This document shows positions 3,418-46,700 of a stretch of 64,000 nt of DNA, piece by piece (position 1 is the stretch's first letter; the number at the start of each line of letters is the position of its first letter). The position numbers and the translations under genes were made by a program. The notes below the pieces were generated by a model. That model was not told where the DNA came from. It searched no databases and saw nothing but the letters and a program-made list of their open reading frames with translations. The DNA comes from Antedon mediterranea (taxonomy: Eukaryota > Echinodermata > Crinoidea > Comatulida > Antedonidae): the NCBI RefSeq assembly GCF_964355755.1, contig NC_092677.1, forward strand, positions 18,818,101 through 18,882,100, given 5' to 3'.

Positions 3418-3520
3418 CATAATATAAAAATAACGCTTAAAAGAGAACGACGTTTCGACTCCATCATGGGGTCATTATCAAGTCCAATGAATAAAATATA
3501 AAACAACAACTAATTAAGTA
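3418..3520 (-). repeat. Penelope terminal repeat, inverted copy
   Basis: Reverse complement of the segment at about 9537-9640, including the block TGATGGAGTCGAAACGTC. It lies immediately upstream of the Penelope coding region. Confidence 0.8.
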
Positions 3521-3568
3521 GTTATTTTTATATTATGTATTTACAATAAACGTACTCTCATTCGTAAT

Positions 3569-5770
3569 TTGAAACGCGATGACCAGCTTCACTTGTTCAG
3601 GAGACTTGAACAGTGTAGCAAGAAATTAGTAAGCTGTGAAACGTCAATTGAATTTCTTCAATTATGTCAAAACCTTGGACTCACTCCGACATTTGCCAAA
3701 GTGGATCAGGAAAAGTCAAAGAGATGGAGCAATTCTGCTAAATTCTTTGAGAAAAATGTAATATCGGAAGAGCTGAAAGCGAAGCTGAAACTTCTTAGTA
3801 ATCTCAGAAAAGAAATAAATACTATTTACACAGAAATCAGAAGTCAATGTTCGTCATTTCGTTATCTCGCTATACTTCAGACTATGACCAAGCTACGCTG
3901 TAATCAGTATGGAGCAGAAATGAATGGACATTCTAAGAAAATCGCAAACCTAATGTACAGAGGTAAGAATGTGGATGAACACATCATTAATATATCATCA
4001 TATAGACTATCGTTCTTTCAAAAGCTAGCGCTCAGCCGTGGCTTACAATTTGCTTACCCTCACCGAGTTTCATCCAGGGAAATTAAAGCAAATTTTGAGA
4101 AAGCGTACTGGAAGCTGGAGCCTAAAATTGTTGGTGAGGAAACTAAAGAATTAACAGCAGCTACTCTAAAGTCTATCGCACTTAATTATATAGAAAGGAA
4201 AGGACCATCCCCACCAAAAGCCTTAACAAGAGCACTTGGCCAATTAAAGAAGAGAGATGATATAATCATCACAAAGCCAGACAAAGGATCAGGAGTAGTA
4301 GTCATGGATAGAAGTGAATATGAACATTTATTATGTGAAGCATCAGTCAACAATGTTTCCAAATTTATACCAATCTCTACTGAACAACCAAGAACAAGAG
4401 GAAGACCAATGACACATTACCATCCACTCCTGAAAAAGGAGAAAGATATGATTTCAACGGTTCATAAAATTCTTCCAAAAGAAATTGCTAAATCAATTTG
4501 TCAAACCGGATCAAGGTTAGCTCATTTGTATGGATTGCCTAAAACACACAAAGAAAAGTTATCTATGAGACCAATCTTGTCAGCAACAGGTACCTACAAT
4601 TATAAATTAGCTCAGTGGCTGGATGAGAAGTTGAAACCGCTATCCCAGAACGCATATACAATAGATGATGTATTTAGCTTTGCAGCTGATATACGCTCCA
4701 CCGTTATTAATGCTAGTGATATTTTGGTATCATATGATGTCTCGTCCTTATTCACAAATGTTCCTTTAACCGAGACAATTCAAATTATTGCTGATAAAGC
4801 ATTTACTAACAACTGGTTCAATGATAATTATGGACTAAACTTAGATAAGGACGATTTAATTGTACTCCTCAATATAGCAACGAAAGATCAGCTATTCCAA
4901 TTTAATGGTAACTTGTATGAACAGGTTGATGGAGTTGCAATGGGATCACCTCTAGGGCCCCTTATGGCAAATGTATTTATGTGCCACATCGAGGAACGCC
5001 TTGAATCTACGAACCACATGCCCAAATACTACAAACGGTATGTTGATGACACACTAGTATTCATGCCAAATCTAGAAGCAGCCAATGAATTTTTAGCTTT
5101 ACTCAACACAACCCATCCTGCGATAGCGTTCACAATGGAAACTGCCGTGAACAATTCAATCCCTTTCCTAGGAATGCTGATAACCAAAGATTTGGAAAAA
5201 TTGCACACACGGGTTTACAGAAAGCCAACAGACACAGGCTTATTGCTACACTACAATAGTCACGTTGACAACAAGTATAAAAGGTCACTTATTATAACTA
5301 TGTTAAATCGGGCTTACAAACTATCGTCGACTCACCAGCTTTTTAATGATGAATGTGAAATTCTAAGGAAGATTTTTAAGCGTCTGAAATATCCAGATGA
5401 ACTAATAACAACAACCATACAGAACTTTAAACCAGCAGAGAGCAATAACAACACTGCAGAAGATGAAACAGATCTATCCGAAATACCAGTGCGAATCATC
5501 CTGCCATTCAAAGACCAGAAATCTGCGAACTCCGTCAAGCGACAACTATGCCAACTAAGTCACAAGATAAACAAAAACATTGTCCCTGTATTCATAAGTA
5601 AAAAAGTTAAAGATAACATTAGGAAAGTCGAAAAGAAACCAACTATTATAAGTCAACAATGTGTTGTGTATAAATTTAAATGTGACTTGTGCGATGCAAG
5701 TTATGTTGGATATACATGCCGACACCTCTACCAACGCATTGTCGAACATAGTAGATGCTTAATAGGACTA
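3569..5770 (+). pseudogene. Penelope-like reverse transcriptase with GIY-YIG domain (interrupted)
   Basis: A single long frame encodes a Penelope-type protein. The N-terminal part has ITKPDKGSGVVVMDR (about residues 231-245). The reverse transcriptase core follows: GLPKTHK, RPILSATGTYNYKLAQWL, SYDVSSLFTNVPL, DGVAMGSPLGPLMANVFM and the catalytic YVDDTLVF, then FLGMLI and RKPTDTGLLLHYNSH. The C-terminal GIY-YIG-type endonuclease begins at VVYKFKCDLCDASYVGYTCRHLYQR. The frame is intact to the insertion point at 5770, after which it reads into transposon sequence and stops at 5815. The rest of the endonuclease is at 9294-9475. The element would copy RNA into DNA at nicked or telomeric ends; this copy is dead. 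Confidence 0.95.
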
Positions 5771-6037
5771 GGCCTTACGGTGAAGATAAAAACATTTTTT
5801 CTTGTTCCTCATTAAGCATAATAAGTGAACTCTCTAGATTCATATACATAAAAATAAATTAATCACGTATTAAAAAGTTCCACGAAAATTTTCCTGACAT
5901 TTTAAAGAAATCTTGATTTTAAAAGTATAAAAGAATATATTTTCGCTGTTGCCATTTTGTATCACATGACATCAGTTAAACCAATCATACGCGACGTTTA
6001 GGCAGCAGACGTCAAAATCATACGATGTAAACACGAA

Positions 6038-17397: not shown

Positions 17398-17513
17398 CCT
17401 TTTCCCACCTAACTAATTTCTTATAAAAATTGTTAAACTATTGTTTTAAATGGATTGTTTTTATATTTCAGCAGCCAAAAATTGACTGACAAGAGACCTA
17501 CTTGTAATGTACA

Positions 17514-19229
17514 ATGGCCGAAAGTTCTTCATTAAAACCTGCAGATGACAAACAACTGAAAGCAGAAACATGTAGTCAACCACACGACATCCTTTGTTCG
17601 CTGGATAACATGCGAAAACGTGGAGACCTTACAGATACCATCATCCACATACACAAGAGAACCTTCCATGCACATCGTGCAATATTGGCTTGCAGTAGCG
17701 AGTATTTCCGTGCAATGTTTACTAGTAATCTTTCTGAAAGCATCAATGGCATTGTACACTTTAACAACCAAATTGATCCTCACATTTTCTCACTTTTGCT
17801 TGACTATTCATACACAACAGAGTTAACAGTGACTGATTCAAATGCACAAGCTTTGTTAGAAACAGCATGTCATTTGCAATATAATAAGGTGATCGATGCA
17901 TGTTGTAACTTCTTAATACAAAATCTGGATCCACCAAATTGTTTAGGAATACAGAAATTCTCTGAGAGGCTTTCACTGTGGAATTTGTATAAGAAGGCAC
18001 AACAATATGCACTGGATTATTTCCTGGAGGTTGTTAAACATGATGAATATCATCAGCTAACACTGCAGGAGTTACGGCAGTATTTGTCAAATGATGAAAT
18101 AAACATCGATAGAGAAGAGTCCATTTACAAAGCAATATTTGCCTGGATTAGATCCAATGATAACCAGGAACTGCTACCATCTCTTCTGTCTTGCGTCCGT
18201 CTGCCTTTCACAAGACCAGACTTTCTACTTGAACAGCTTGACAATCCACTCATTAAACAAAACCCAGAATGTGCTCACATGCTGAGAAGTGCCAGAAATA
18301 ACCAGCTACGTTTACGAGAAAAGTACCTTTGTGATTCCACTCTCATTCCTCGTTATTCCACCAAATCTGAAGTAGTTGTGGTCATGGGTGGCAGCTGCTC
18401 TCATGATCGTGATGTGTTTTATTACAATCCATCAACCGATCGTTGGGGTATTCTTACAAGACTACCTAATTTGGATATATTTGATTTTGCAGTTGGGACT
18501 TTAGACAATTGTATTTACATTTCTGGTGGAATAAAGTCTAAAATCGTCAGTAATGAAGTGTATTGTTATGATGTCGATAAAGCAAAGTGGCATTCATGTA
18601 AGAATTTTCACATGCCACGTACCCAGCATTCGTCCATTGGTATCAATGGGTTTCTCTATATAATTGGAGATAACAGGATGGTTGATATGGTTGAAAGATT
18701 TTCTCCTGCTGAAAATCTATGGGAAGTTGTTAGTCCATTACCAGTTGCAGTTTCTTCTCCTGTCATCGTTTCAAACAAACACAAAATATATGTGACAGGT
18801 GGTAGTGCTTGTAGTCAGTTGAATCAGTTTCAAAACATCCAGTGTTACGATACAATCAATGACACATGGACAGTGATAAGAACAGTAAGCATTCCAAGAA
18901 AGCGGTTTCCAGTAATAGTTATCGATGACATCATGTATATACTGAGTGGGTATGGCGAAATGCAAGTTTATGACATCAAATCCGATAGTCTGTTGCCACC
19001 AATGTTGTTGCCAAATAAGGAGCAAAATTTGTTTGGGGCTGTAGCCGTGAGAGACAAGATATATGCTGCCATCATAAACAAACATAAACAACGACAATGT
19101 GATCTTCAATTGTTCGATCCACGAATAAAAGAGTGGCAGAAAAAAACAACAATGCCAAGTGCTGTTGGAGTGGACGGACATTGCCTAAGCATCTATAAGT
19201 ACTTAGGCCCGCCATTTTCAAGCAAGTAA
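17514..19229 (+). CDS. Kelch-like protein (BTB-BACK-Kelch)
   Basis: A 571-residue intact frame without introns. An N-terminal BTB domain lies at about residues 35-140 (GDLTDTIIHIHKRTFHAHRA, ILACSSEYFRAMFTSNLSES). A BACK domain follows at about 145-250 (NCLGIQKFSE, YFLEVVKHDEYHQLTLQELR, SIYKAIFAWIRSN). Six Kelch blades run from about 283 to the end, recognisable as VVVMGGSC, CIYISGGIKS, FLYIIGDNRM, KIYVTGGSAC, IMYILSGYGE and KIYAAIINKH, with W residues before each next blade. Proteins of this build usually act as CUL3 ubiquitin-ligase adaptors: BTB binds CUL3 and the Kelch propeller binds substrate. That role here is inferred from family. An acceptor-like TTATATTTCAG ends at about 17471, so a 5' untranslated exon is likely. 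The ATG sits in a good context (ACAATGGCC). I cannot assign a specific KLHL orthologue. Confidence 0.95.
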   Translation: MAESSSLKPADDKQLKAETCSQPHDILCSLDNMRKRGDLTDTIIHIHKRTFHAHRAILACSSEYFRAMFTSNLSESINGIVHFNNQIDPHIFSLLLDYSYTTELTVTDSNAQALLETACHLQYNKVIDACCNFLIQNLDPPNCLGIQKFSERLSLWNLYKKAQQYALDYFLEVVKHDEYHQLTLQELRQYLSNDEINIDREESIYKAIFAWIRSNDNQELLPSLLSCVRLPFTRPDFLLEQLDNPLIKQNPECAHMLRSARNNQLRLREKYLCDSTLIPRYSTKSEVVVVMGGSCSHDRDVFYYNPSTDRWGILTRLPNLDIFDFAVGTLDNCIYISGGIKSKIVSNEVYCYDVDKAKWHSCKNFHMPRTQHSSIGINGFLYIIGDNRMVDMVERFSPAENLWEVVSPLPVAVSSPVIVSNKHKIYVTGGSACSQLNQFQNIQCYDTINDTWTVIRTVSIPRKRFPVIVIDDIMYILSGYGEMQVYDIKSDSLLPPMLLPNKEQNLFGAVAVRDKIYAAIINKHKQRQCDLQLFDPRIKEWQKKTTMPSAVGVDGHCLSIYKYLGPPFSSK

Positions 19230-25718: not shown

Positions 25719-28700
25719 CTGTGTGAAAGGCACAAAAAAGTATATTATACCAAAAGAGATTATCGTATATATCTAATATGGCTGTACCAATTGGTCAATC
25801 ACATACACCAGTTTGAAGTCACATCTCATACTTAGTCATGCACTACTGTCATGGTTGGTTGAATGGTAGGTAGGAATGTTTCAGTGAAGGAAGAAAGGAT
25901 AGTGGAAAGTGGAAGAAGGCTTGCTAGAATTGTAAGAGAAGCTGTGAACAAAGCATGTATATGGCTAGCCAGTTTAATTGCTGTACAGCATCTTGTGAAC
26001 TGTTCATTTTGTCTGGACTTTGTTTGGTTTTTATATTTTAGGTTATTATTTTTATATACTGAAAATAATATTTATATTATAAATTCTTTATACACCATTA
26101 CACAAATTCTTGGTAGACAATACATACAAACTGACCTTAGTTGTAGTTTGTTTCTTTGCTTTGGATTCATCTGTGTCTTTAGATCCTTTTCTATCTTTTC
26201 TTCGTGTAGACTCTGTAGTTGACAACTGAGCTACCTGAGCTTCAACATTCATACTTTGAGTGAATCGCTGTAAAAAATGTACTTTATATTAAAAATATGG
26301 AAGATGTGAAAAATGAGAATAGAATCTTAATGCAGACACTCCTCTGAACACAGACACTCCCTTGAACACAGACATCCTAATATGGACACTAACCCTATAA
26401 TATGGACACTAACCCTATAATATGGACACTAACCCTATAATATGGACACTAACCCTAATACAGGCACTCACCTCAATATAAACACTCAACTTAATATAGA
26501 CACTCGCCTTAATATGGACATGCACCCTATTATGGGCACTCACCTCAATATAGACACTTACCTCAATATTGACAGTCACCTCAATATAGACACTCACCTC
26601 AATATAAGCACTCAACTTAATATAGACACTCGCCTTAATATGGACATGCACCCTATTATGGACACTCACCCTAATACAGGCATTCACCTCAATATAGACA
26701 CTCACCTCAATATAGACACTTACCTCAATATTGACAGTCACCCTAATATGGACACTCGCCTCAATATAGACAATCACCTCAATATAAACACTCACCTTAC
26801 TGGGGTAGCACTAACATTTCATTTTGTTTAGCCATTTGGCGAAAGTCAAAAAATTTTTTTTAGACAAATCAGTTTATCTATAGCCAAAATGGCTAAAGTC
26901 AAATTTTTTTATTTAGCCAAATGAATCGGTTTTTAGCCAAAATTTAAAATTGTTGAAATATAATGGTAAAAACATTTTAGTCAATTTATCTATGTCAACA
27001 GGTCTATACACTGTTCCCTGAACATTTTTGTAAGGCATTGAGATAAAAGAACCATACCTAAATCACTGTATGATTAAAAAAAATAATATTCTTTTTGTAT
27101 TTTTTTTACATGATCAAAACAATTGTTCAAATTGTTTTTAATCATACAGCATTCATACAGTTATCAATTTAATAAGAAACATTTTACATTTTTCTGAAAT
27201 CCCCTGAACGCTATGTTACTTTTGTTTTTTACGCTTGGCTGGTCATGTTTGTGTGTGACGGCTTCCATCGCGTACCAGGCGAAAATCGTGTCCTAGACTT
27301 CACAGTCACTCAGCATCACCGCCGCGCAGCGGGTTAATGTTTTTAAATTGGGTATGCTCAAGAGGTGCGAAAGTGCAAAACCGCCGGCCTAGGCCTACAA
27401 AATCATGTACAACAACGGTATATCGTAGGCTATGCTAAAAATATTGTGGAAAATTCCTAGCAAACGAACACTCGTATCGTTGTTGAACGTAAGATAATAT
27501 AGGCCAAAGCACAGAGTACACGTCTTTCCATCCCTCAAGGCTGCGCCGAAGCGTTTCTGGCAGGGCGAGAAATTTATCCCGATTATTATTTATTTACACA
27601 ACAACACAGAAGCCGGCGGCCGGCCCCGCTCAGATGCACGTGTGTGTTTAGCTAAATCCCTGTTAGACTCTACCATTTCCCGCATGTTGTTTTGTTTACA
27701 CTGACGCACGAGGGAAGTTTATTACGGGTAAAATATGAAACTACATTAAATTGAAAGACTCTAAAATGCATAACGCATACATTTTTGATTTTGATAAGAT
27801 TAAATTCATCGAAGATACTATAACGTTTCTTTTTAATCTGAAAAGTACACCCCTATCGAAAAATAGACAATCCCGGTAATTAGCCGACCGTCGGCTACGT
27901 AGTCGTTTGTGCAGCGCACAACACATGATAGTTTGGGTAGACTTCATCATCCATGTGTCGTGTAACGTCTGTCTCTCTGTGCAGTCTACCTCTGCTATCT
28001 CCATCTTTTTGAAATAACAAAGAGACGCCTGGTACAACGAAACAAGTTGACGAAAAATGGAGCTTGAAGTAAACAACGTGATAACGAACAAAATAAATGC
28101 TTGGAGATCGACAAATGGACCTTTTAGTTGGACTTTATGCTTTTGCCAAAATGATTATTTAATTATCTATTTTATCATATGTCATCGCCAAAATGGCTAA
28201 AGTAGCCGTTTTATTTTTCGCCAATCTGGAACCGTTTTCGCCCATGGTGACTTGGCGATCGGCCAGTGCGAGCCCAGCCTTAATATAGACACTCACCTTA
28301 ATATGGACATGCACCCTATTATCATTATGGACACTCACCTTAATACAGGCACTCACCATAATATGGACACTCACCTCAATATGGACACTCACCTCAATAT
28401 GGACACTCACCTCAATATGGGCACTCACCTCAATATGGACACTCACCTCAATATGGACACTCACCTTAATATAGACACTCCAATTAATATGTACATGCAC
28501 CGTATTACAGACACTCACCCTGATACAGGCACTCACCTCAATATAGACACTCACCTCAATATAGACACTCACCTGAATGCAGTTGCTGAAGGTAACACAA
28601 ACAAGCATGAGTTTACTGACTATCTTGAGTAAATCAGGATTTGTTAGCATACAGTCTTTCAAACACTTGTCCAAGAAGTCTGTGTGATGTTCTAAGACAT

Positions 28701-31700
28701 CATCAATATTAGACACCTAAGCAAGAAGATATTGCACAAATTATTATCAGCCAAGGTGGCTAGATGATTCAATTGGGAGTGGAATACACAATAAAAAAAT
28801 AATTCTGGAATATTCTAATGACAGAAATAATGTTGAATTGATGAATCCTATCATGATGTCATATGTTACACTTTTTTAGATTTTTAATAGAGGGTTAACG
28901 CAGGGCATGCTCAAAAACATAGGTTGTGATATCGTCCAAACCATGAGGTAAGTCAATAAAATGTTGTTAGAGGATCTTGATCACAAATACACATTTATGT
29001 AAGAATCTTCATTCATGATTACTTATACTTATTTATACTTGATTGTATTTTGAATGAATAAATTATCCAAACATTTTTTTCTAAACACAATATAGAAATA
29101 TAGTATATTTTAACTTACACTTCTAAAATTCTCCAACATCAATAACCAATTGGGTTCAATGACCTCAAACATCATGTAGTACTGGAGATTCTGAACAAGA
29201 TGCAACATTCGCTGACGGAGAGCAAACCCTGCTGCGTACCACTTCGAAGAATGCAGAGAGAACTTCTTGGCACTCTTGTTGCTAAGCCAAACACTGCATA
29301 TGGTACGTTCAACATGCTTGCAATAGAACAGATGACGAAATAACATCTGGTATTTTGTCAATGCCTGTAAAAGCAATAACAAAAATGATCATCAATAGCG
29401 GATCTACTCCACAATATTTTGTAATAATAGTTTACAGCCACAGGTATGTTGTAAAACAAATAATGAATGTTTATGAGTGGAATGGAGAGAAAATGTTAAG
29501 TCTAAAGTTTTTTAACTGGTCTACTCAAAAGGCATACCGTAAATCTTCTAATAGTAACCCCCTTCTAATGGTAACCCACCTTATAAGTCAATCTATAATA
29601 ATAACCCACTAGTCTAATAGTAACCCCCTTCTAATAGTAACCCACACTCTAATAGTAACCCCCTTCTAATAGTAACCCACACTCTAATAGTAACCCCCTT
29701 CTAATAGTAACCCACACTCTAATAGTAACCCACACTCTAATAGTAACCCACACTCTAATAGTAACCCACACTCTAATTATAACCCACACTCTAATTGTAA
29801 CCCACTACTCTAATTGTAACCCACACTCTAATAGTAACCCCCTTCTAATTATAACCCCCTTCTAATTATAACCCCCTTCTAATTATAACCCCCTTCTAAT
29901 TATAACCCCCTTCTAATAGTAACCCACACTCTAATAGTAACCCCCTTCTAATAGTAACCCACACTCTAATAGTAACCCCCTTCTAATAGTAACCCACACT
30001 CTAATAGTAACCCACACTCTAATAGTAACCCACACTCTAATAGTAACCCACACTCTAATTATAACCCACACTCTAATTGTAACCCACACTCTAATTGTAA
30101 CCCACTACTCTAATTGTAACCCCCTTCTAATTATAACCCCCTTCTAATTATAACCCCCTTCTAATTATAACCCCCTTCTAATTATAACCCCCTTCTAATT
30201 ATAACCCCCTTCTAATTATAACCCCCTTCTAATTATAACCCCCTTCTAATAGTAACCCACACTCTAATAGTAACCCACACTCTAATAGTAACCCACACTC
30301 TAATAGTAACCCACACTCTAATAGTAACCCACACTCTAATTATAACCCACACTCTAATTGTAACCCACTACTCTAATTGTAACCCACTACTCTAATTGTA
30401 ACCCACTACTCTAATTGTAACCCACACTCTAATAGTAACCCCCTTCTAATTATAACCCCCTTCTAATTATAACCCCTTCTAATTATAACCCCCTTCTAAT
30501 TATAACCCCCTTCTAATAGTAACCCACACTCTAATAGTAACCCACACTCTAATAGTAACCCACACTCTAATAGTAACCCCCTTCTAATAGTAACCCACAC
30601 TCTAATGGTAACCCCCTTCTAATAGTAACCCACACTCTAATAGTAACCCCCTTCTAATAGTAACCCACACTCTAATGGTAACCCCCTTCTAATAGTAACC
30701 CACACTCTAATAGTAACCTCCTTCTAATAGTAACCCACACTCTAATAGTAACCCCCTTCTAATAGTAACCCACACTCTAATAGTAACCCCCTTCTAATAG
30801 TAACTCCCTTCTAATAGTAACCCACACTCTAATAGTAACCCACCTTCTAATAGTAACCCACACTCTAATAGTAACCCACACTCTAATAGTAACCCACACT
30901 CTAATAGTAACCCACACTCTAATAGTAACCCACACTCTAATAGTAACCCACCTTCTAATAGTAACCCACACTCTAATAGTAGCCCCTTCTAATAGTAACC
31001 CCTTCTAATAGTAACCCCCACTCTAATAGTAACCCCCCTTCTAATAGTAACCCACACTCTAATAGTAACCCACCTTCTAATAGTAACCCACCCTCTAATA
31101 GTAACCCACACTCTAATAGTAACCCCCTTCTAATAGTAACCCCTTTCTAATAATAGTAACCCACACTCTAATAGTAACCCACACTCTAATAGTAACCCCC
31201 TTCTAATAGTAACCCACCTTCTAATAGTAACCCACACTCTAATAGTAACCCACCTTCTAATAGTAACCTACACTCTAATAGTAACCCCTTCTATTATAGT
31301 AACCCAGACTCTAATAGTAAACCCCTTCGAATAGTAAACCCCCCTTCTAATAGTAAACCCCCCTTCTAATAGTAACCCACACTCTAATAGTAACCCACAC
31401 TCTAATAGTAACCCACACTCTTATAGTAACCCCCTTCTAATAGTAACCCACACTCTAATAGTAACCCACCTTATAAGTCAATCTATATATACTCTAATAG
31501 TAATGGGTTACTATTAGAGTCACACAAACTTATGATGCAGCCATATTTTGAAAATACGGAGATAATACATGTTGATCTCGGGAGTGGGGAAGGATTGAGT
31601 GTTTTTGAGTTTATAAAATAAAGTTTAAATTTGTTTATTCGTACTGCTTTAATATTTTGTTAAGAGTTGCTAGTGCCTAATTTAAGATTAGTAATAGTAA

Positions 31701-34700
31701 CCAACTACTCTAATAGTAACCCCCCTTCTAATAGTAACCCACACTCTAATAGTAACCCACACTCTAATAGTAACCCCTTCTAATAGTAACCCACACTCTA
31801 ATAGTAACCCACACTCTAATAGTAACCCACACTCTAATAGTAACCCACACTCTAATAGTAACCCACACTCTAATAGTAACCCACACTCTAATAGTAACCC
31901 CCACTCTAATAGTAACCCCCACTCTAATAGTAACCCCCACTCTAATAGTAACCCACACTCTAATAGTAACCCACACTCTAATAGTAACCCACACTCTAAT
32001 AGTAACCCCTTCTAATAGTAACCCACACTCTAATAGTAACCCACACTCTAATAGTAACCCACACTCTAATAGTAACCCCTTCTAATAGTAACTAACCCAC
32101 ACTCTAATAGTAACCAACACTCTAATAGTAACCCCCTTCTAATAGTAACCCACACTCTAATAGTAACCCACACTCGAATAGTAACCCACACTCTAATAGT
32201 AACCCCCTTCTAATAGTAACCCACACTCGAATAGTAACCCACCTTCTAATAGTAACCCCTTCTAATAGTAACCCACACTCTAATGGTAACCCCCTTCTAA
32301 TAGTAACCCACACTCTAATAGTAACCTCCTTCTAATAGTAACCCACACTCTAATAGTAACCCCCTTCTAATAGTAACCCACACTCTAATAGTAACCCCCT
32401 TCTAATAGTAACTCCCTTCTAATAGTAACCCACACTCTAATAGTAACCCACCTTCTAATAGTAACCCACACTCTAATAGTAACCCACACTCTAATAGTAA
32501 CCCACACTCTAATAGTAACCCACACTCTAATAGTAACCCACCTTCTAATAGTAACCCACACTCTAATAGTAGCCCCTTCTAATAGTAACCCTTCTAATAG
32601 TAACCCCCACTCTAATAGTAACCCCCACTCTAATAGTAACCCCCCTTCTAATAGTAACCCACACTCTAATAGTAACCCACCCTCTAATAGTAACCCACAC
32701 TCTAATAGTAACCCCCTTCTAATAGTAACCCCCTTCTAATAGTAACCCCTTTCTAATAATAGTAACCCACACTCTAATAGTAACCCCCTTCTAATAGTAA
32801 CCCACCTTCTAATAGTAACCCACACTCTAATAGTAACCCACCTTCTAATAGTAACCTACACTCTAATAGTAACCCCTTCTATTATAGTAACCCAGACTCT
32901 AATAGTAAACCCCTTCTAATAGTAAACCCCCCTTCTAATAGTAAACCCCCCTTCTAATAGTAACCCACACTCTAATAGTAACCCACACTCTTATAGTAAC
33001 CCCCTTCTAATAGTAACCCACACTCTAATAGTAACCCACCTTATAAGTCAATCTATATATACTCTAATAGTAATGGGTTACTAAAGCCCCTTTCTCACAG
33101 AGTTGTGTGCCAGGAATATTGCGGGAATATACCATTACCATGCCGGTATGGTTTTCTGTGAGAACGGGTCGTCTTGGCATCATGCCGGCACCGACATGAC
33201 CTGCTTTAGACCTAGTAATATTCTAGGGATATTCCCCGCAATGCCAGACGGGCATTCTGTGAGAACGTATTGCCGTTATATTCCGGGGTTCCCCGTCGAG
33301 GCTTTGACACCTTGCGCAGTCAAGTGTATCACTTTGGCGCCTATTCAATTCAATTAACAATAATAATGTCGAACTGGAGGGATAATGAGATAAGAGAGCT
33401 GCTTAAAATAAGGGGACAAGAAGAAATTTGTAGCATAATCTATATAGGCCACTAGGCTAGGCCATTAGCTCTTTGTTTGTTGGTGCCTGACCTTTCGTCG
33501 CCTTGTAACTTGTAGGCCTACAGCCTTCTAAGGTGTTTTACAGATTGCCGATGACGGCAAATTAATTGCTACACCTGTATAATATATGCACAATATACTG
33601 TACATAGCATGTATTGCATAAATATGCTATAAAGGAAGATAATAATCTGTAACTTAACATTCGCCGCCATATCATCGCTAGACAAAAATAATAACAATAA
33701 AGGACGCCCTCAATAATTATTTTGTCAGAGACTTTTTATTGGCCGAATATGCCCGACTCCTTTCTCACAGAAAGCCGGTATATACCGGTTATATTTCCGG
33801 CACGATAGTCCGATGAGAATGGGTATATGCCGGTAACGATACCGGCACGACGCCAGCACTGTACCGGTATATTGCAGGCACATCTGTGAGAAAGGGGCTT
33901 TAGAGTCACACAAACTTATGATGCAGCCATATTTTGAAAATACGGAGATAATACATGTTGATCTCGGGAGTGGGGAAGGATTGAGTGTTTTTGAGTTTAT
34001 AAAATAAAGTTTAAATTTGTTTATTCGTACTGCTTTAATATTTTGTTAAGAGTTGCTAGTGCCTAATTTAAGATTAGTAATAGTAACCAACTACTCTAAT
34101 AGTAACCCCCCTTCTAATAGTAACCCACACTCTAATAGTAACCCACACTCTAATAGTAACCCACACTCTAATAGTAACCCCTTCTAATAGTAACCCACAC
34201 TCTAATAGTAACCCACACTCTAATAGTAACCCACACTCTAATAGTAACCCACACTCTAATAGTAACCCACACTCTAATAGTAACCCCCACTCTAATAGTA
34301 ACCCCCACTCTAATAGTAACCCACACTCTAATAGTAACCCACACTCTAATAGTAACCCACACTCTAATAGTAACCCCTTCTAATAGTAGCCCACACTCTA
34401 ATAGTAACCCACACTCTAATAGTAACCCCTTCTAATAGTAACTAACCCACACTCTAATAGTAACCAACACTCTAATAGTAACCCCCTTCTAATAGTAACC
34501 CACACTCTAATAGTAACCCACACTCGAATAGTAACCCACACTCTAATAGTAACCCCCTTCTAATAGTAACCCACACTCGAATAGTAACCCACCTTCTAAT
34601 AGTAACCCACACTCTAATAGTAACCCACACTCTAATAGTAACCCACACTCGAATAGTAACCCACACTCGAATAGTAACCCACACTCTAATAGTAACTCCC

Positions 34701-37700
34701 CTTCTAATAGTAACCCACACTCTAATAGTAACCCCTCTTCAAATAGTAACCCACACTCTAATAGTAACTCCCCTTCTAATAGTAACCAACACTCTAATAG
34801 TAACCCCCTTCTAATAGTAACCCACACTCTAATAGTAACTCCCCTTCTAATAGTAACCCACACTCTAATGGTAACCCCCTTCTAATAGTAACCCACACTC
34901 TAATAGTAACCCCTCTTCAAATAGTAACCCACACTCTAATAGTAACTCCCCTTCTAATAGTAACCAACACTCTAATAGTAACCCCCTTCTAATAGTAACC
35001 CACACTCTAATAGTAACCCCTCTTCAAATAGTAACCCACACTCTAATAGTAACTCCCCTTCTAATAGTAACCAACACTCTAATAGTAACCCCCTTCTAAT
35101 AGTAACCCACACTCTAATAGTAACTCCCCTTCTAATAGTAACCCACACTCTAATGGTAACCCCCTTCTAATAGTAACCCACACTCTAATAGTAACCCCTC
35201 TTCAAATAGTAACCCACACTCTAATAGTAACTCCCCTTCTAATAGTAACCAACACTCTAATAGTAACCCCCTTCTAATAGTAACCCACACTCTAATAGTA
35301 ACTCCCCTTCTAATAGTAACCCACACTCTAATAGTAACCCCCTTCTAATAGTAACCCACACTCTAATAGTAACCCACACTCTAATAGTAACCCACACTCT
35401 AATAGTAACCCCTCTTCTAATAGTAACCCCTCTTCTAATAGTAACCCACCCTAAAATACAATCAAAGAATAATAACCAAGGGTTACAATTAGAAGATTTA
35501 CGGTATGCTGTAGTCAAGTAATAATAAAATAATGAATATTTATATTTGCCCGCCTTGTTAAATAAGTCAATCTTCCAACTTAAAATTTTCTCTCCATTTC
35601 ACACATTATTGTTTTACAACATATATTCTCAGCATCCACTCAACATTTATTATTTGTATAATATTTCACAATTCTCAAAACTATATGCATCACGATGCAC
35701 TGAACAAAATGATCAACTAACGCTCTACTCCATTATCCAACTTTATGTGACAAAAATATGGTAGTGATTTGTATGATTTATTTCTTTTTTATTTTTAAAT
35801 GCGCCTTGAGCACTCTGGAGTGGTATGTGCGCTATAAAAATCTTATTATTATATTATTATTATAGTGATATGTCTTCATCATGTCCATGTATGTATTTGC
35901 ATTGATACCATTATTAACATTGACATTTGAAGTATGACAATCCTCATTGTGACCTTTATTAAACTAATTAGTCATGGTAACAGAGTACAGCTATATAATG
36001 TAAGTCAAAAAATCATTATGACGATGATTGAGGTACTACACTCTGAGACAGAGTACAAGATTAGGTAGCATGAATTCCATCTTACCTTTCTACTCAAAAT
36101 AAGTGATTCAGGCCACCTTACAATGTAATCAAATGAGAATGCCTCAAGACCAGATATATGGATTTCAGTAGGGTCCATCTCTTGAAAGACAACTAACAGT
36201 AAAAACAAACAAGCCAATATTATATATTATTAAAACATTTTTCAATACATAATTATTTACAATGTTTTAAAGCAGCCGAAAATTATTTCCTATGAACAGT
36301 GTATCTGATCACATTCTGCCAATCTCATACACTATGACACAGGCTATCCTGGATAAAGAATATTTCTGAGAAAAAACTATCTATGCCTCAAACAAGATTT
36401 ATTTTTATAAATATAAAACGTACCAAAAATCTTGTATCAAGACATGGTTTGTTTCTCTTGAACTAGACTTTATCTAGGAAGACCATTTCAAAGCTTGAAC
36501 CAACATGGCACTATGCTTGCTGAAAGATATACAAACCTCTAACCTTTTTCTTGTTTTGACTCAATAGATAGAATTCGCAATAGTTGGGTGATCAGATCGT
36601 AAGGTAGAAGAATTGGTCTGTAAAATAAAGGTTTGTAATAATAGCATGTTTTAAATCCTAATTTAGGATATAATTATCATGATTTTTCATTTGATCAAAG
36701 CAGCACAAGTTCATGCTTCAACAGGAGTAAGACATGTTTTGTGTGGAGCTTCTGGATTACTTACACTGCTGTATATGCTAATTTTCAGTGAATAAGTGAT
36801 GCCGAAACAAAAGACGGCGAAGGCTGTTAAGCCTGTCGACCAAGCCAGCAATGTGAACTTGGACGATGAATGCACAGGCTTTGAAACGTATGTTCGTTCT
36901 ACACTTAAATCGATGTTGGGTGAAAAAAGACAAATTAGACTTGATTTAAAGCTCAGGTACAGGCATGAATTTTAAATATAATATCTGGTTAATTATACAT
37001 AAATCAAATATTTGTAACAGAAATCAAGACGAAAAAACATGAATTTCCCTTAATATGGCCAAATACAAAATTTTGCAAAATTCTTCCATACAAACCAGGA
37101 AGACCTTTTTTCAGTAGTTAGGTAGTTAACCTAATGTAATAACATGTCTTGTGACTCCCTAGAAGGTGAAAAAAGATGGTGGATATACGGTGGATAATTT
37201 TTGCTATAGCATGAAAATAAAAATTTGAAGTTGAATAAAAATTCCAGAAATGTAATATTCAAGTTATATTACCTATACTTAGTCAACTGATAAAATTTTT
37301 TATCACACTGTTTATTTTTCGTAGCTTTTTAAAATGCCTCTCTATTTACAAAATTTGTGTACAAAAGAATAGAGATTTTACTGTGTAATTTTAACTATCC
37401 CCCACTGATAAGAAAGTGCTTATTTTCAACAAGCTTGTGTAACACAAATAAAATCCCAAAAATTATGAAACATAGGGGAAACTATAGATCGATAATTATT
37501 GGAATGTATGATCAATAGAAATTTTTTGCCCGTACCTGGCCTTTAAAAGATAGTATTGATAGTCTCAGAGAATTTCAACAATTGAAAGTAACAACAAAGA
37601 AACCAAAAGCCAGGTTGAAGCTCTTTAAAGCAAGATCAGCAAAATAAAAGATGGCCTCAACCAATCTGAGCGTTTTTCATGAAGAAACAACATTTGACTT

Positions 37701-40700
37701 ACCGGTTTTGAACAGGCTTCAAGGGAAAATTGTTTACTCTTGGCTGATGACCTGCTAGCTAAACACTTCACATTTGACTCTAAACCTAAACTCGAACGAA
37801 CACATCGCGACGGAAGATCTCAAAACGGTAAGCCACCTCACATTCTGATCAAGTTTTATCTTACACGGGCACCACTGCTCAAGCCTCATAAAGTCATCTT
37901 CGTCAAAACTTAATTTTAAGGCACATATGAGGGACGCAACGACAAACAACATTGGGTAAAAAGGTTGTGAAGCAATAATGGGCTTTTCAATCTGGAAATA
38001 GATAATGATAACCAGAATGCAAGGGATGCAGAGATTAAGCATCAGATAATTCAAGGCGGCCGAAATAAAAAGGTTCGAAGACAAGCTCTACATAAGGACT
38101 GGGATGGGTTTGCAAAGGTGCAAGATTTGCCAATTAATAAGAGCGAAGAATCAGATTGATCGACTTGATTTTGCAGTGAAATGTATAAGAAATGCCGAAC
38201 AGTTCAAATGCGTTATCTTTACTGGCGAGTGTACAATTGAACTTGAATTGAACAACCAAAATTGAAACCTAGGGCCAAACATCCAACAAAAGTACATGTA
38301 TGGGCAGCAATTTCTACAGAGGGAGCGACGTCAATCATCATATTTGACGTTATAATGAGGAAAGAATTTTATGTGGACACAATATTAGATAAAGTATTAC
38401 CTCCGTTTCATGACGGAAAAATATACTTCGCGTTACTCTGCCGATTATTTCAAAAGAGAAAACATATATTGGTGGGAAACCCTGGCGGAGTCACCAGACC
38501 TTAATCCAATCAAATTAATTAATCATTTCATGTTTTTGCAAGTATACATTTTTTTTAATAGTACAATACAAAAAAAAATGTATGTATGGAATGAATGATA
38601 AAATGAAAGAAACTATTGTAACACTAGTCTGTACTGCCGTGTAAATGCATGAAAAGGGGATATGCAGTGATTAGCCACATATGAAACTATGTATGCTAAT
38701 TAGGTACAAGCTTTGATTGAATAAAAGCACAACAGTTACTGCATTTCAATCTATTACAACCCAACCTCCACACAGCCTAAGAATGAATTAAAGAATACCT
38801 ACTTGAGGTCATCTTTGAAAGGATCTGCATTTGCTTCACTGGTTCTGATGGCCAATTCCACCAGAGACTCCAACCTTGATGGCATTATTTCTTCCATGCC
38901 TTTCTTCATTTCATCTTCTGTGATGTCCATAAAGTGAACAAAGAAATCACCTTGCTCCATCAGGAAATATCGCTTGATGGATCTAAATACAAGAGATAAT
39001 CCAGAATTACATACTTGAGATGCAGAAATGAGGAATGCTAGAGTAAATGGCATAAAAAATTATCAGAATTTACCTGGGTAAATGATGAATTCGGCATTAA
39101 GCCAATCAGAAAAATATACCAGTTAAAACAATCCACGTTCATTTTCCTCTTGCACTGTAAAAGGCTTCGATTTCCCACCTTTTTATACTGTTTTATTATG
39201 GCTTGGGATTGATTTTAAAATTTAATTTATTTATTTGACCAATAAACCATAATATAAAATATACAGAGATGGAAAAATGAAAATAAAAAATTATATTTTG
39301 TTCATAATTCACCCAACAAGGGCCAGTGTTTGATTCACAGAGCACGAGAACAGGATCAAACAACCCCCTAAATCGGTGACATCATAATTGATTTAAATCA
39401 CCACCCACACTTAAAAGTTATTTGGGTATGGTGTTTGTTGAGTAGAGTCTAGGCCTTTGACAAATTAAAATTGTTTTTCGCTTTTTATAAAAAGGTGTTG
39501 TGTAATCCCTCTGGTTAATAATGGAATAATCCTTTTAGTGGTCCGAGTTAATAGAATAAAACTCAGGTCTTGAAATTGAGTTTTCTCGATCTAGAAAGGG
39601 TGGATTCTGGGTTTTCCAGAAACTTCTTTCTAGAAACTTAAATAAAAATGGCATACCTGAGCCTTGCCATTAACTCTCGTTCTTGCATGAGTAGATCAAT
39701 CAGTTCTTGACTGGCATGACTAAAAGTCTTCTCAATCTGATCAACATACTCACGCTCATTTAATGTGTACAAAATTTCTTCAGCAATAGGACATGCTGGA
39801 CTGCGCCCTGAAATAATGTTTAAACAATTATCTGTCAATCGTTAAAATCACTAATATTTAAACGACGTTTATAAAAGGCTGACCGAAAAAGGGTGGGCTT
39901 TCTTTTTATTTGGCAAGCAATAAAAAAATATATCTTTCATTTCTTTTTGGAATAATTATCAATCAATCAATCAATCAATCGTTCGATTTATATAGCGCCA
40001 TTCCAACATTCATTGCTCATGGCGCTGTAAAAAATCAGAAAAGGTGAGTTTTGAGTAGTGACTTAAAGTGACTCAATAATGATGTGTGTTTAATGTTCAA
40101 TGGTAGGTGGTTCCAGAGCCTAGGTCCAGCAACACTGAAAGTTCGATCTCCCCAACTATGTTTGCTCCTTGGAATGTCCAGTAGCACCTGATGACTAGAT
40201 CTTAGTTCTCGCTTTCCCTTCTTGACTGTCAACAATTCTGAGAGATATTTTGGAGCGCAACTATTTAGGCATCGGAACACCAGCAGCAGGATCTTAAATT
40301 TAACACGTGACTCCATGGGTAGCCAATTTAACTCTTTGAACAATGGTGTGACGTGATCATACTTCTTGGCACACATCACCAAGCGAGCTGCCCAATTTTG
40401 CACCTTCTGGAGAGTCCGCAACTGCTTCTTTGGCAGACCATACAGCAGGGAATTTCCCATATCAAGCCGACTGGTAACAAAAGCATGTACAATCTGCTCT
40501 GTTGCACAATGGTTCAAGTAACGTCTGATCTTGGCGATGTTACATAAATGGAAAATAGCAGATCGGCAGATTTTGTTGATATGTGATTCCATGGTCATTT
40601 TACAATCAAGTTGTACACCAAGGTTACGAACTTCTGATGATGGATTGACTAGTACGCCACCAATATGTAGGCCATCAAACCGGATCTTTTTTCTCTGCTG

Positions 40701-43700
40701 AACAGAACCAAATAGGATCACCTCGGTCTTTTTATCATTTAGCTTGAGGAAGTTGGAGCCCATCCATTTTCTAATCTCAGCAGTGCATGCTTCTAACCGT
40801 TTTACGGCGGACAGAAACTTGGTCTGGCAAGGCTTGACAGAAACGTAGATTTGTATATCATCTGCATAGAAATGATGACATAATCCGTGTCTTCGTATTG
40901 TTTCAGCAACTGGGGCAACATAGATGGAAAACAGCTGTGGTCCAAGCACCGAACCTTGTGGGACGCCACATAATAGAGGAAGGTCATCTGATGAAACATC
41001 ACCAATGCAGACGGCCTGGGTTCTGTTCCTTAGATATGATGTGAACCAAGACAATGCTTGATCTCTTACCCCAATATCATGTGACAATCTATGAAGAAGC
41101 AGTGAGTGATCTACTGTGTCAAAAGCAGCCGATAAGTCTAGTAAAACTAGAATAACAAGTTCTTGATTATCTATTGATGTCAAAACGTCATTCTGAACAC
41201 GTAGAAGCGCTGTCTCCACACTGTGGTTAGCTTTGTATGCTGATTGGTAAGTTTCATGGAGGTTGTGATTTGACAATGCTTAGAGAGTCTAACTGCAACA
41301 ACACGCTCAATAAGCTTCGAAACAAAGGATAAATTTGAAACCGGTCTATAATTTTTAAGAACTTCTGGGTTGAGGCCAGTCTTCTTCAGCAAAGGCCGTA
41401 CATGTGCTTTCTTTAAATTCTGCGGTACTGTGGATGCGATAAGTGAAAGATTAACTAATTTCATTAGCACTGGAACTATTACAGGAGCGCAATCCCTTAA
41501 AAGCCAAGTTGGAATAGGATCTAGCTCACAAGACTTTATCGGGGATGCCTTGATCAATTTCTCGATCTCCTCATCTGTGGTTGGTTCAAGAATAGACAGT
41601 TGACAGCTTAAAGGAGCCCTTGTACTAAATGTATGCGCATCTTGGAGAACAGATTGAGGAAATCCTGATCGAATTTTAGTGATCTTTTCATTAAAAAACT
41701 CTGAAAAACGTTCAGCAAGAATACTGGTTGATTTACAGGTAGGTAAGGGTGTCTTATTTCCTCTATGCAGTAACGTGTTTACAATTTTGAATAATTGCTT
41801 CTGGTCGCCTACAGCATTATTTACTAGAGCTGAGTGATATTCCAACTTTGCAGTATGAATATGCGATGATACACATTGGCGTTGATGTGTGTAAGCATAC
41901 CAATCAGTTTCGAGACCTGTCTTACGCCATTTCCTCTCCAGCTGCCTTCTTACTTTTTTCTGTTTTCGTATCTCATCAGTATACCATGGAGTTTGCGGTC
42001 GAATAGTCACCAGACGTGACTTAGTTGGAGCAAGTTTATCTATGATTGAACGCAATGTAGAGTTGTACATACATATAGCATCATCAATGTCACATGGAAG
42101 AGATACAGTCAGTGTTAGTGGTAGTAACTCGCTGACAACAGAGTCGGCACAGAGATTCTTGTAGTTACGACTAGAAACTATTTTCTGAGTTGGCGGCGGT
42201 TTATTTAACTGTAACTTACAATGTACGGCTGAGTGGTCAGATATTCAATAATCAACTATTCGAAAATCATCTAGGCTTTGACCTATTGGATTTCTCTGTT
42301 GAGTTGAAATTGCATGAGTGATTTTTATATATCATTATTTTAAGATTTTCATCCAGTAGCACGTAATTTCACATTAACACAAATAATTAAAACCAAAAAT
42401 ATCTGATCAAGCCTCTTTTTCAATTGATGATTTGCTTGTTTTTTTTAGGCCTTACAGTGTAGAAAAAAAAAACATAAATGTGTGGAATACCCTGCGTATT
42501 GCAGCCTACTGTGCTGAATAGCGCACAGGTGTGGATGACACAAACAACAAATAATAATGGATAAAATAATGGTATTCATTTACCACACTGTCTGATGACA
42601 TTGAGGTATTTTCCTGTGCTAAGTATCTTGTTTGCAACCGTCTCAAGGAAGACAGGAATTCTATCCCTACAAATGGTATAGCGTTGTTCCCAATACGCAT
42701 CATTATACTCCCATTGCAATTTCTCTTTATGAACTGAATCGTTTTCTTCCACCATAAACTAAAAAAAAATATTTAAAAATATATAAGAATTCCTGTTTTT
42801 GATGTAGATATATCACAATAATTAATATTAGCTAAACAAATTAAACTACTGTACTATTTTCTCATTTCTCCCCCGGGTATAATCTGCATTTTTGGATCAT
42901 TGGGTATAAGCCCACCCCCCAAACTTGACATAATTTCATGTTCAAGCGGGGTTGGCTTATAATCGCGTCAGTACGGTAGTAGTAATTTTTCATGTCTGGC
43001 TATGCTCACGATTTTTACTTTCCAAGTTGGGCCCTCTGTAAAATTGAATTTGGATTTTCATTAACAAGCTTAGAAATATAGTTTATCGTGTCCTCAACCA
43101 CAGTAGCCCAGTACAGACTGAAACGATGACGCTGCAGAATTAATACAGCACTATACCAATGAAAAATAAACTTATTTTCTTCTTTCTCATATAATAAACT
43201 TTTTCTTCATCAATTTCAACAATTGTACAACAGTACAAATTGTACAGCATATTATAGTTTTCATCTCTTCTAATAAAAAGTTACTCATGCTGTAAACAAG
43301 TTTATGCTAATATGTATAAAAATTGACAATTTACCAACCTCACAATAGGGATCCCGTATAATTCCCTTGTAAATCCATTTTTCAAGTATCTCAAAGTATG
43401 GAACACATGCTGATTGGGTGAGGTAAAGGCACAGATCCTGAGCTTTGGCATCACTGTAAAATAATCACATGGAATTTGATACAAAAATAACATTTCAGGA
43501 ATCATTAATGTTATTACATCTATACAAATGCAGCATAAATAGTTCCCAATGCATTATGGATTAAATGCCACTTTTCACATCTAGTAGTTTGATCTTTCGC
43601 AGGAATTGCAATGTTCAGGGTTAAAAAATAACCTCTAAATCACAGTGGCCGCATTTATACAAATTGAATATATCTTTAAAAAACACCTCTTTTTCAAAAC

Positions 43701-46700
43701 TCAATATTGAGATTTGAACAAAAACAATCTACTGTTCAGACCATTTTTCTGTCAGAGAAAATAAAATTTCCTGAGAATTAGTGATCTGGTCTGTGCAAGT
43801 GTTTATTGCAATACTCCATTATGACCATTTTCTTGTAACGTTACATTTGTGGATACACACCAAGTGTTTTCAAAAGGAATTTTTTGGAGATAATTATTAA
43901 ATCAATAACTTTTTAAAGTGAATTTATATTTTTAATTACCCAATCATTGCTGTTGTTTTCTCATGCAGTAAGCTTAGAACGGATCCACCTGAGCAAGCAC
44001 CTCTCTCAATACAGCTTGCTATTGATGCTAGAACATCAAGTGTCTGCATACAAGGCTGCAGATAGAACCATAGCCTTTGAAGGGGCAGATTCTCTAACAA
44101 GTATTGGTATTCTAATTGAGCAATAAGGATGAAATATTCCTGGAAAAAAACAAAAGAATCTATATATTAATGCTACTAAATTGGTCACATAATTTTACGT
44201 ATCTCCTCCGAAACCGCTGAATTGTACATGCTCACATTTGGTACACTAATGTTTCTTAATATGTCTTACATAATAGGTTTTATCACTTTCCTGAATTTTA
44301 TGGATAAACACTTAAAAAAGGCAAAAAATAACAGTAATTAATTACACGTATCCCTGCAACATAATGTATTTCGAATTCACAATTAGCTCAGTGAGTAAAA
44401 CCTGTGGCCATTGATATCAATGCTTAGTACAGTAGAGTTTGAATCCGCAAATGCTTGTTACATGTAACATTTTTACATACATTATTTAATAGAATATAGA
44501 GGCTGATATGAACTAAGTAAACAGGTGAAACCCAACCATGCCTGACAAAACATTGATCAGTACAGTTTAACAACTATTTCAAGAGTGGCAATTTTCTTGG
44601 TTTTGGTACACATAATTCTGGCCGTAGGCATAGTGGTGCATGACCGAGTAAGGCATGCAATGAAATTGAATTACTACAGCTACCATCTGATAGTAATGTT
44701 GCAATAAGTAATCATGTTTTAATCTTTTCTATATGAGTTTTTGACCTTTAAAATAAAATTAAATTTTGCTTAGAATTTCAAATTTATCAAAAATCAATAA
44801 TACCTTACCTTAATCAGCGTCCTAATTGCTTTAGAGAGGGCATGGTTTACCACACCATACTCAAACGCCACTTTATCCTCAACGAATCTCATGATAGTGG
44901 AGTAGTTGGAACACATTGGTAAGATTCTATAAACTAGCTCTTGAAGCGAAACATCAAGTGTAGGGTCAACATTAAACTCGCGTGGTGTTGCACTACCTGG
45001 CGATGGTTTCACAAAAATGTAACGCCCCTCACTCCCCTAAATAATTTGATATCAATAATAAAATCAATACAAAATGATGCCATGACACCATCATAATTAA
45101 CTCAAAAACAAGTCTTTTCCTTTACGTGTTAAAAATTTCAAATTCTGTTTAATCTCAAGTATGGATATAACATGCCATATGTGTGTAAAAATGTTTTCAT
45201 ATTATATTATTATATAATTATTATTAATAGAACTTGGACAAGATTAACTATTAGTATTGTTACTGTATGTTAGATGCTTGGTTCTAGGTCGATTTAGTTT
45301 TATGGGCAAATAAATGTGACAATCCATTAATTCTTCGAAAATATATGGCGTTTGATTTAAGTACAGGTTCACTAGTCAATGGACAGTATAACACAGGACA
45401 ACCTAGGGCAGGCAGGCAAACATTTTGGGCTTCACTAGTCAATGGACAGTATAAGACATGACAACCTAGGGCAGGCAGGCAAACATTTTGGGCTTCACTA
45501 GTCAATGGACAGTATAAGACATGACAACCTAGGGCAGGCAGGCAAACAGTTTGGGCTTCACTAGTCAATGGACAGTATAAGACATGACAACCTAGGGCAG
45601 GCAGGCAAACATTTTGGGCTTCACTAGTCAATGGACAGTATAACACATGACAACCTAGGGCAGGCAGGCAAACAGTTTGGGCTTCACTAGTCAATGGACA
45701 GTATAACACATGACAACCTAGGGCAGGCAGGCAAACATTTTGGGCTTCACTAGTCAATGGACAGTATAAGACATGACAACCTAGGGCAGGCTGGCAAACA
45801 TTTTGGGCTTTAAAGTATTTGATAATTACACAAACATTTTTTTTCTATAAAAGTTACCTTCAAAACCATGAGGAGATCTTGAACAATTGCTAACTCTTGT
45901 ACAGCAAGTGGTTGATTACCAAGTGGAACACTAGTTTGCGTTGTACCCTTCGCAGATACCACAAACTCATCTGTCAAATGAGGGCGCTCATAGGCCCACG
46001 CAGGAATTACCGGTAGATTAATAGATGCTGAAATTGGAATCGAAATAACTTTTGCCATGACATATAGTAGTAACACCACAATATATGTTGGAACAAATTG
46101 TGGCAATTACCGTACTACTGAAGTACCTAAAAAAAATATTTCAATAGTGCCAGGCTACACATTTTGACCAATACAAACTATCGAACGGCTATTGAGCTGC
46201 TGTAAAATATCTTTTTGTTGACATAAGCATTGCTGATCTAGTGAGATGAGATTGTACAAGATCTGTTTTTGTAAAATGAAACAACAAAGTTTGAATAGAT
46301 TGTACAGTATAATATATACATATTAAAACACATACAACTTTTCTTGGTTTGGCGTTCTCTCATCATCCTACGAAGGGACTCTGAAGTCTGTACTGGACTA
46401 CTGGTGCTGGCAAATGATAGCAGCTGGTTTCTTAACTCTGACACTTCCCTGTCTGACATTTTGGATCCTGAATGGGGTAGTTGCATTTTATCCATTGGTG
46501 TTTCCATCTTCTTAGCATTTTTCTCCAGCGTTTTAACAACAGCTCTATCATCAGATATCTTTGAAAGAAGAGAGACAAGGACATCCAAGTCACGAACACT
46601 GCAAAACAAAGTTTATATTTTATTGTAAATATCTACAAAATAAAACAAGTATTTCAAATCTGTGCTGAAATCTTGCAAAATCTCTACAAATTCTGTATTT

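Follow-up and report, generated by a model that had tools for sequence, protein, structure and literature searches.

A tandem array of splice donors in a TUBGCP2 intron of the crinoid Antedon mediterranea, probably seeded at the exon-intron boundary

An intron of TUBGCP2 (GCP2), encoded on the minus strand of a 64,000-nucleotide stretch of the Antedon mediterranea genome (contig NC_092677.1; hereafter the window), opens with a tandem array of about 42 units of 18 bp, the first of which is the 5' splice site itself. We consider it probable, from comparisons of sequence, that this array is a minisatellite of the type called mirages in amphioxus, seeded at the exon-intron boundary and expanded silently. 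It most likely has at least three well-supported companions in the same genome, in TDP2, HUWE1 and UTP6, together with several likely ones. In the course of events that we propose, a short segment containing the GCP2 5' splice site would have been duplicated in tandem, and the copies, lying inside the intron, would have been free to multiply and diverge, perhaps by slippage or unequal exchange. An intron that may once have measured less than 100 bp would have grown in this way to ~822 bp, after which a transposable element would have landed in the array. The early units still hold a donor, and if the spliceosome keeps to the one at the exon edge, changes in array length would be silent and the junction would stay intact.

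The initial annotation of this stretch had recognized an 18-bp minisatellite in a TUBGCP2 intron, and both parts of that description stood. The peptide joined from the two flanking exons matches GCP2 in the PDB (E 8.4e-58) and the Pfam family GCP_C_terminal (PF04130, 1.7e-23), with the junction at NCIQ/RFTQ. The upstream exon (28573-28716, minus strand), placed by its open reading frame (ORF) and by alignment to PDB GCP2, ends ...NCIQ in phase 0 with the bases CTGCATTCAG; the next exon (26136-26267, minus strand), placed by the same PDB alignment, starts RFTQSM.... Tandem Repeats Finder (TRF) reports a period of 18 and 16.4 copies at 28278-28578. The count of 13 GGTGAGT motifs made earlier by eye was reproduced on the minus strand, where they extend between 28291 and the real donor at 28573, and the window as a whole holds 22 against 4.39 expected, a number that none of 100 shuffled sequences reached. 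As had been proposed, the unit is the start of the intron after CAG: unit 1 begins at intron base +1, so that the first copy sits on the exon-intron boundary and is itself the donor.

At 28278, where the array was first thought to stop, it is only interrupted by a segment of 1,478 bp, beyond which it resumes at 26799 and runs on to ~26326. Its exon-side half (28278-28572, minus strand; delimited by TRF, motif count and unit alignment) comprises units 1-16, and its intron-side half (26326-26799, minus strand; TRF and unit alignment) units 17-42, with fewer intact donors and a 20-bp sub-array at 26378-26457. The two halves are in phase across the inserted segment and form one array. When that segment and one duplication are removed, the 2,305-bp intron shrinks to 822 bp, made up of 764 bp of units followed by a 58-bp tail outside the array (26268-26325, minus strand) that holds the 3' splice site. 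We set the end of the array at unit 42; the alignment extends as far as base 816 of the 822, but its last units, 43-45, each depart from the repeat at 9-11 of 18 positions. The earlier statement that nearly every unit is a donor holds for the exon-side half, where 13 of 16 units have an exact GTGAGT, and fails further into the intron, where the motif is kept by 6 of the 19 units 17-35 and by none of units 36-42. Intact splice signals are thus found in 19 of units 1-35.

The segment between the halves (26800-28277) has imperfect terminal inverted repeats (CTGGG...) and is flanked by the target-site duplication CCTTA (plus strand) at 28278-28282 and 26795-26799. With 40 of 209 candidates scored, it has at least 56 matches in the genome, and at least 19 copies, itself included, are full-length (bases 1-1478), the other 18 being 92-95% identical to it. 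A 5-bp target duplication also flanks two further copies exactly (L002 and L004) and a third with one mismatch (L003). The gap is a transposable element that landed in the array. Because it is a multi-copy element with target duplications, and because the phase of the array is unbroken across it, we rejected the reading of two independent arrays.

Arrays of the same kind were sought in the genome as triples of donor octamers or nonamers, with 100 of 273 and 100 of 136 matches listed in two of these searches; 24 fetched loci together with GCP2 gave 25 that were examined, and matches at C3:20740765, 21384252 and 21651932, C9:321120, 349955, 1224138 and 5265049, and C16:4028 lie outside this set. 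Exons were called by eye on ORFs, and Pfam or PDB searches were run on the positives other than L024 and L025, while the negatives were judged by eye alone. The first donor copy was judged to end an exon at 10 of the 25 loci, and the remaining 15 arrays were judged to lie away from exons. Six of the ten have protein support: GCP2, TDP2, HUWE1, UTP6, Rabaptin and a gene with a CUB domain. In TDP2 (L012), the exon ...GDTNLRDSE is followed by 28.9 copies of a 31-bp unit that includes 23 nt of exon tail, and the exon matches PDB TDP2 to its last residue (1.4e-10; the Pfam match, at 0.0034, falls below the cut-off). The HUWE1 array (L023; three copies of a 30-bp unit, 19-nt exon tail) and the UTP6 array (L026; 8.8 copies of a 31-bp unit, 22-nt tail) likewise follow exons that match in the PDB to the last residue (1.2e-13 and 1.2e-7, respectively); no Pfam match was found for the UTP6 exon. 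At these three genes the PDB match covers the exon tail that is repeated, and the presence of exon sequence in the unit is clear.

The other positives are less direct. In Rabaptin (L007), the exon ...AEDAQTQ precedes 23 copies of a 17-bp unit at 99% identity, with an 11-nt tail; this exon and one other match only weakly (Pfam CREPT 0.0018 and Rab5-bind 0.0036; PDB Rabaptin 0.2), and the joined neighbouring exons reach 9.5e-31 for Rab5-bind, a signal that comes mostly from the neighbours and not from the array exon. The CUB gene (L029; 11 copies of a 23-bp unit, 22-nt tail) has a Pfam CUB match (1.7e-7) that ends 9 residues before the end of the exon, and PDB neuropilin matches that reach within 1-5 residues of it. 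At L028, L030, L024 and L025 exons were assigned from open frame and context, and protein searches gave no family match for L028 and L030. In the nine positives other than GCP2, copy 2 has 9 to 23 nt in common with the end of the exon, with 0-3 mismatches, and the arrays place 3 to 27 exact donor motifs after the exon ends of TDP2, Rabaptin, HUWE1, UTP6 and other genes. The final copy of the TDP2 and Rabaptin arrays stops at the donor hexamer and gives way to unique intron, as expected if the exon tail plus the donor was the duplicated piece. The 34-bp donor array of L024 and L025 recurs at several places on C3 (20.09-21.65 Mb) among the matches listed; at these two loci it comes after near-identical short exon-like stretches, DAPIAAPLA(T/A)SSLGTGI, as if a gene family had been duplicated together with its array. 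Since these two loci look like copies of each other, the ten positives amount to about nine independent cases.

The assembly totals 354 Mb, in 11 contigs measuring 22-41 Mb and 7 small ones no longer than 567 kb. Allowed up to 3 mismatches, a 25-base pattern of the unit dimer finds 29 places in it, all within this GCP2 intron, and its backward control finds none. All seven period-18 pairs of AGGTGAGT also lie in this intron only; here the backward control gave seven as well. Searched as a whole, the array retrieves, besides its own two halves, three C6 segments that are 77-79% identical (E 6.4e-7 to 1.5e-5). A dispersed satellite or an introner was rejected, as the close unit-dimer matches are confined to the GCP2 intron; the many copies at different loci that mark introners were not found, the search yielding no close copy elsewhere and the one 77-79% match on C6. 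That locus (L009, C6:7665500-7669700) carries an array of 13.8 copies of 17 bp at C6:7667427, similar to part of the GCP2 array and sharing with its unit the 12-base string CCATATTGAGGT. It is in antisense orientation next to an apparent exon, to which we gave a phosphodiesterase-type label by eye; Pfam returned only an unrelated weak match.

These searches bear on whether an unrelated minisatellite arose in, or was inserted into, the GCP2 intron and resembles a donor by chance. GTGAGT is a short motif, 15 of the 25 donor-like array loci examined were judged non-exonic, and a weakly similar array does exist on C6. We nevertheless regard chance resemblance as improbable, given a register that is exact at intron +1, the lack of a close copy anywhere else in the genome, and the arrays of other genes that hold exon sequence inside protein matches. 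On the same grounds, namely the position at +1, the uniqueness of the unit and the companion arrays that span protein-supported exon ends, the proposal that the minisatellite was built from the splice donor was upheld.

The GCP2 seed may also have included exon sequence. The last 10 bases of the exon agree with unit 42, the 3'-most, at 9 of 10 positions, a score reached by 0.48% of random tails ending in AG (p 0.0048) and by none of 134 internal 10-mers of the GCP2 exon. This likeness fits an old, drifted duplication of the boundary but is not proof of one, and several observations weigh against seeding at the boundary. The length of 10 bases was picked post hoc, and with 12 bases p rises to 0.03; against the unit consensus the exon end gives p 0.04 (10 bases) and 0.10 (12 bases). 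Copy 2 shares with the exon end only 6 nt, ATT(C/G)AG, of which 5 are identical, and the last GCP2 unit, unlike those of Rabaptin and TDP2, has no trailing donor remnant. Nor are the controls on the other loci favourable. A stretch shorter than one period that is common upstream of the first donor also occurs in 10 of the 15 non-exon arrays (all 15 negatives and 9 positives compared), and in 7 of 13 negatives (L005, L008, L010, L011, L015, L017 and L027; L014 and L031 left out) the frame is open for 31-106 codons before the first donor, against 25-142 codons in the 9 positives tested. Donor-like arrays were not consistently over-represented in the genome either, as backward controls equalled or exceeded the matches in four pattern searches and were lower in three. 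Neither an open frame nor a common tail alone separates exon from non-exon arrays. Because these controls fail to discriminate, seeding at the boundary rests on the protein matches, which are best at TDP2, HUWE1 and UTP6.

The GCP2 array is, as had been noted, open in one gene-strand frame, which proved to be that of the exon, and besides the authentic donor 12 exon-side donors further downstream are in frame and stop-free. It had been suggested that use of downstream units could extend the protein by six codons each, and that the decoys might be a source of GCP2 length variants; the added residues would be VSVYIE-like and would fall in the C-terminal domain. Such an extension is feasible on paper, and in pairing with what we take to be the 5' end of U1 the decoys nearly match the real donor, which at -14.1 kcal/mol is the best of the 112 GT sites that the intron has without the element (the others being at -12.7 or weaker). 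The units nevertheless lack the mark of coding constraint. Relative to the consensus, units 1-35 carry 63 nonsynonymous and 6 synonymous codon differences (counted per unit, not per event), and differences fall mostly on codon positions 1 and 2 (40, 36 and 8 at positions 1, 2 and 3), while 11 of the 54 possible single-step changes of the unit are synonymous, 40 nonsynonymous and 3 stops. Simulated runs leave the frame open by chance in 6-58% of cases, depending on assumptions. Seven genes were compared for frame: in five of them (Rabaptin, TDP2, UTP6, L028 and the CUB gene) every donor after the first shifts the frame or meets a stop, and in-frame, stop-free downstream donors were found only in GCP2 and the three-copy HUWE1 array; frames in this comparison were assigned from ORFs, that of L028 without protein support. 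The architecture of the arrays is therefore not tied to the reading frame, as the periods of 17, 31, 19 and 23 at other genes shift the frame or run into stops. On this evidence length isoforms of GCP2 are unlikely, and the claim that the decoys generate them was not borne out.

If the array is instead a silent expansion, the first donor would presumably be the one mainly used, a view that its U1 pairing, the strongest in the intron, favours. A report on SRSF1 (PMC5585400) speaks against this assumption, stating that the factor favours the intron-proximal of two competing donors, so that choice of the exon edge is not assured. The decoys could also be kept by selection, for instance as sites that retain U1 snRNP, with protection of the transcript or control of its splicing as the benefit. 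Within units 1-16 divergence is indeed lower in the donor columns than in the others (0.078 vs 0.169); in units 17-35 the two are nearly equal (0.132 vs 0.142), and across units 1-35 as a whole the difference falls short of significance (30/280 vs 54/350, Fisher p=0.10), which leaves selection on the decoys a very remote prospect beside silent expansion from the boundary.

Further repeats and genes lie in the window, whose G+C content is 32-36%. Two 18-bp arrays with the unit TAATAGTAACCCACACTC (29596-33039, ~193 copies; 34078-35449, ~77 copies) occupy what appears to be the preceding GCP2 intron; they have the same period as the donor array, but their unit reads differently and they are not at a donor. 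A 63-bp array (45368-45810, 7 copies, 97%) starts ~47 bp past what looks like the donor of a GCP2 exon further upstream, near the boundary but with the donor itself outside the array. Two ORFs encode reverse transcriptases (Pfam RVT_1; 3518-5815, plus strand, and 40035-41279, minus strand), and a 573-codon ORF encodes a BTB-BACK-Kelch protein (17508-19229, plus strand).

These arrays offer natural test cases for the choice of a 5' splice site among near-equal donors, a choice that can be tested in its natural setting because in five of seven genes the frame survives only if the first copy is used. They also illustrate a way in which short introns could lengthen, and suggest a wider distribution for mirages than amphioxus, from which they are known. 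That boundary-seeded donor arrays reflect a general and ongoing process outside cephalochordates, which lengthens introns and exposes a robust rule selecting the exon-edge donor among dozens, is a broader proposition to which we would give slightly less than even chances. If growth from the donor is correct, it would be expected to show in a close relative as a short GCP2 intron starting GTGAGTGT after the same exon end.

Among known systems, the Rogers model reportedly has introns arise when segments containing AGGT are duplicated in tandem, with an RdRp gene of potato as a case. The likeness is that a piece carrying a splice signal is repeated; the GCP2 intron differs in bearing no evidence of being new. 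In genes of human segmental duplications, variable minisatellites at exon-intron boundaries are reported to alter splicing patterns (PMC2812944). The position at the boundary is shared, but the human repeats are tied there to novel introns and alternative transcripts, whereas the GCP2 array appears to have lengthened an existing intron from its donor. Closest are the mirages of amphioxus: tandem repeats that straddle exon-intron boundaries of Adh3 and the globins BflGb6/BflGb9, described as regularly spliced and unstable in length, with somatic instability at Adh3 (PMC3087553), and of troponin C and PGBD5, in a paper that reports undisturbed splicing (PMC3902484). In a literature covered partially, by title and the start of the abstract, mirage repeats with splicing appeared only in amphioxus, in these two papers. 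GCP2 differs in its ~42 units, its inserted element and the uncertain exon part of its unit, and splicing and instability were observed in amphioxus whereas the crinoid arrays are known from the sequence of one assembly. Branchiostoma floridae has n=19 (PMC7269912), against the 11 large contigs of the present assembly. What the two share is arrays at exon-intron boundaries, and the GCP2 array looks like a known kind, the mirage, in an apparently new lineage outside the cephalochordates.

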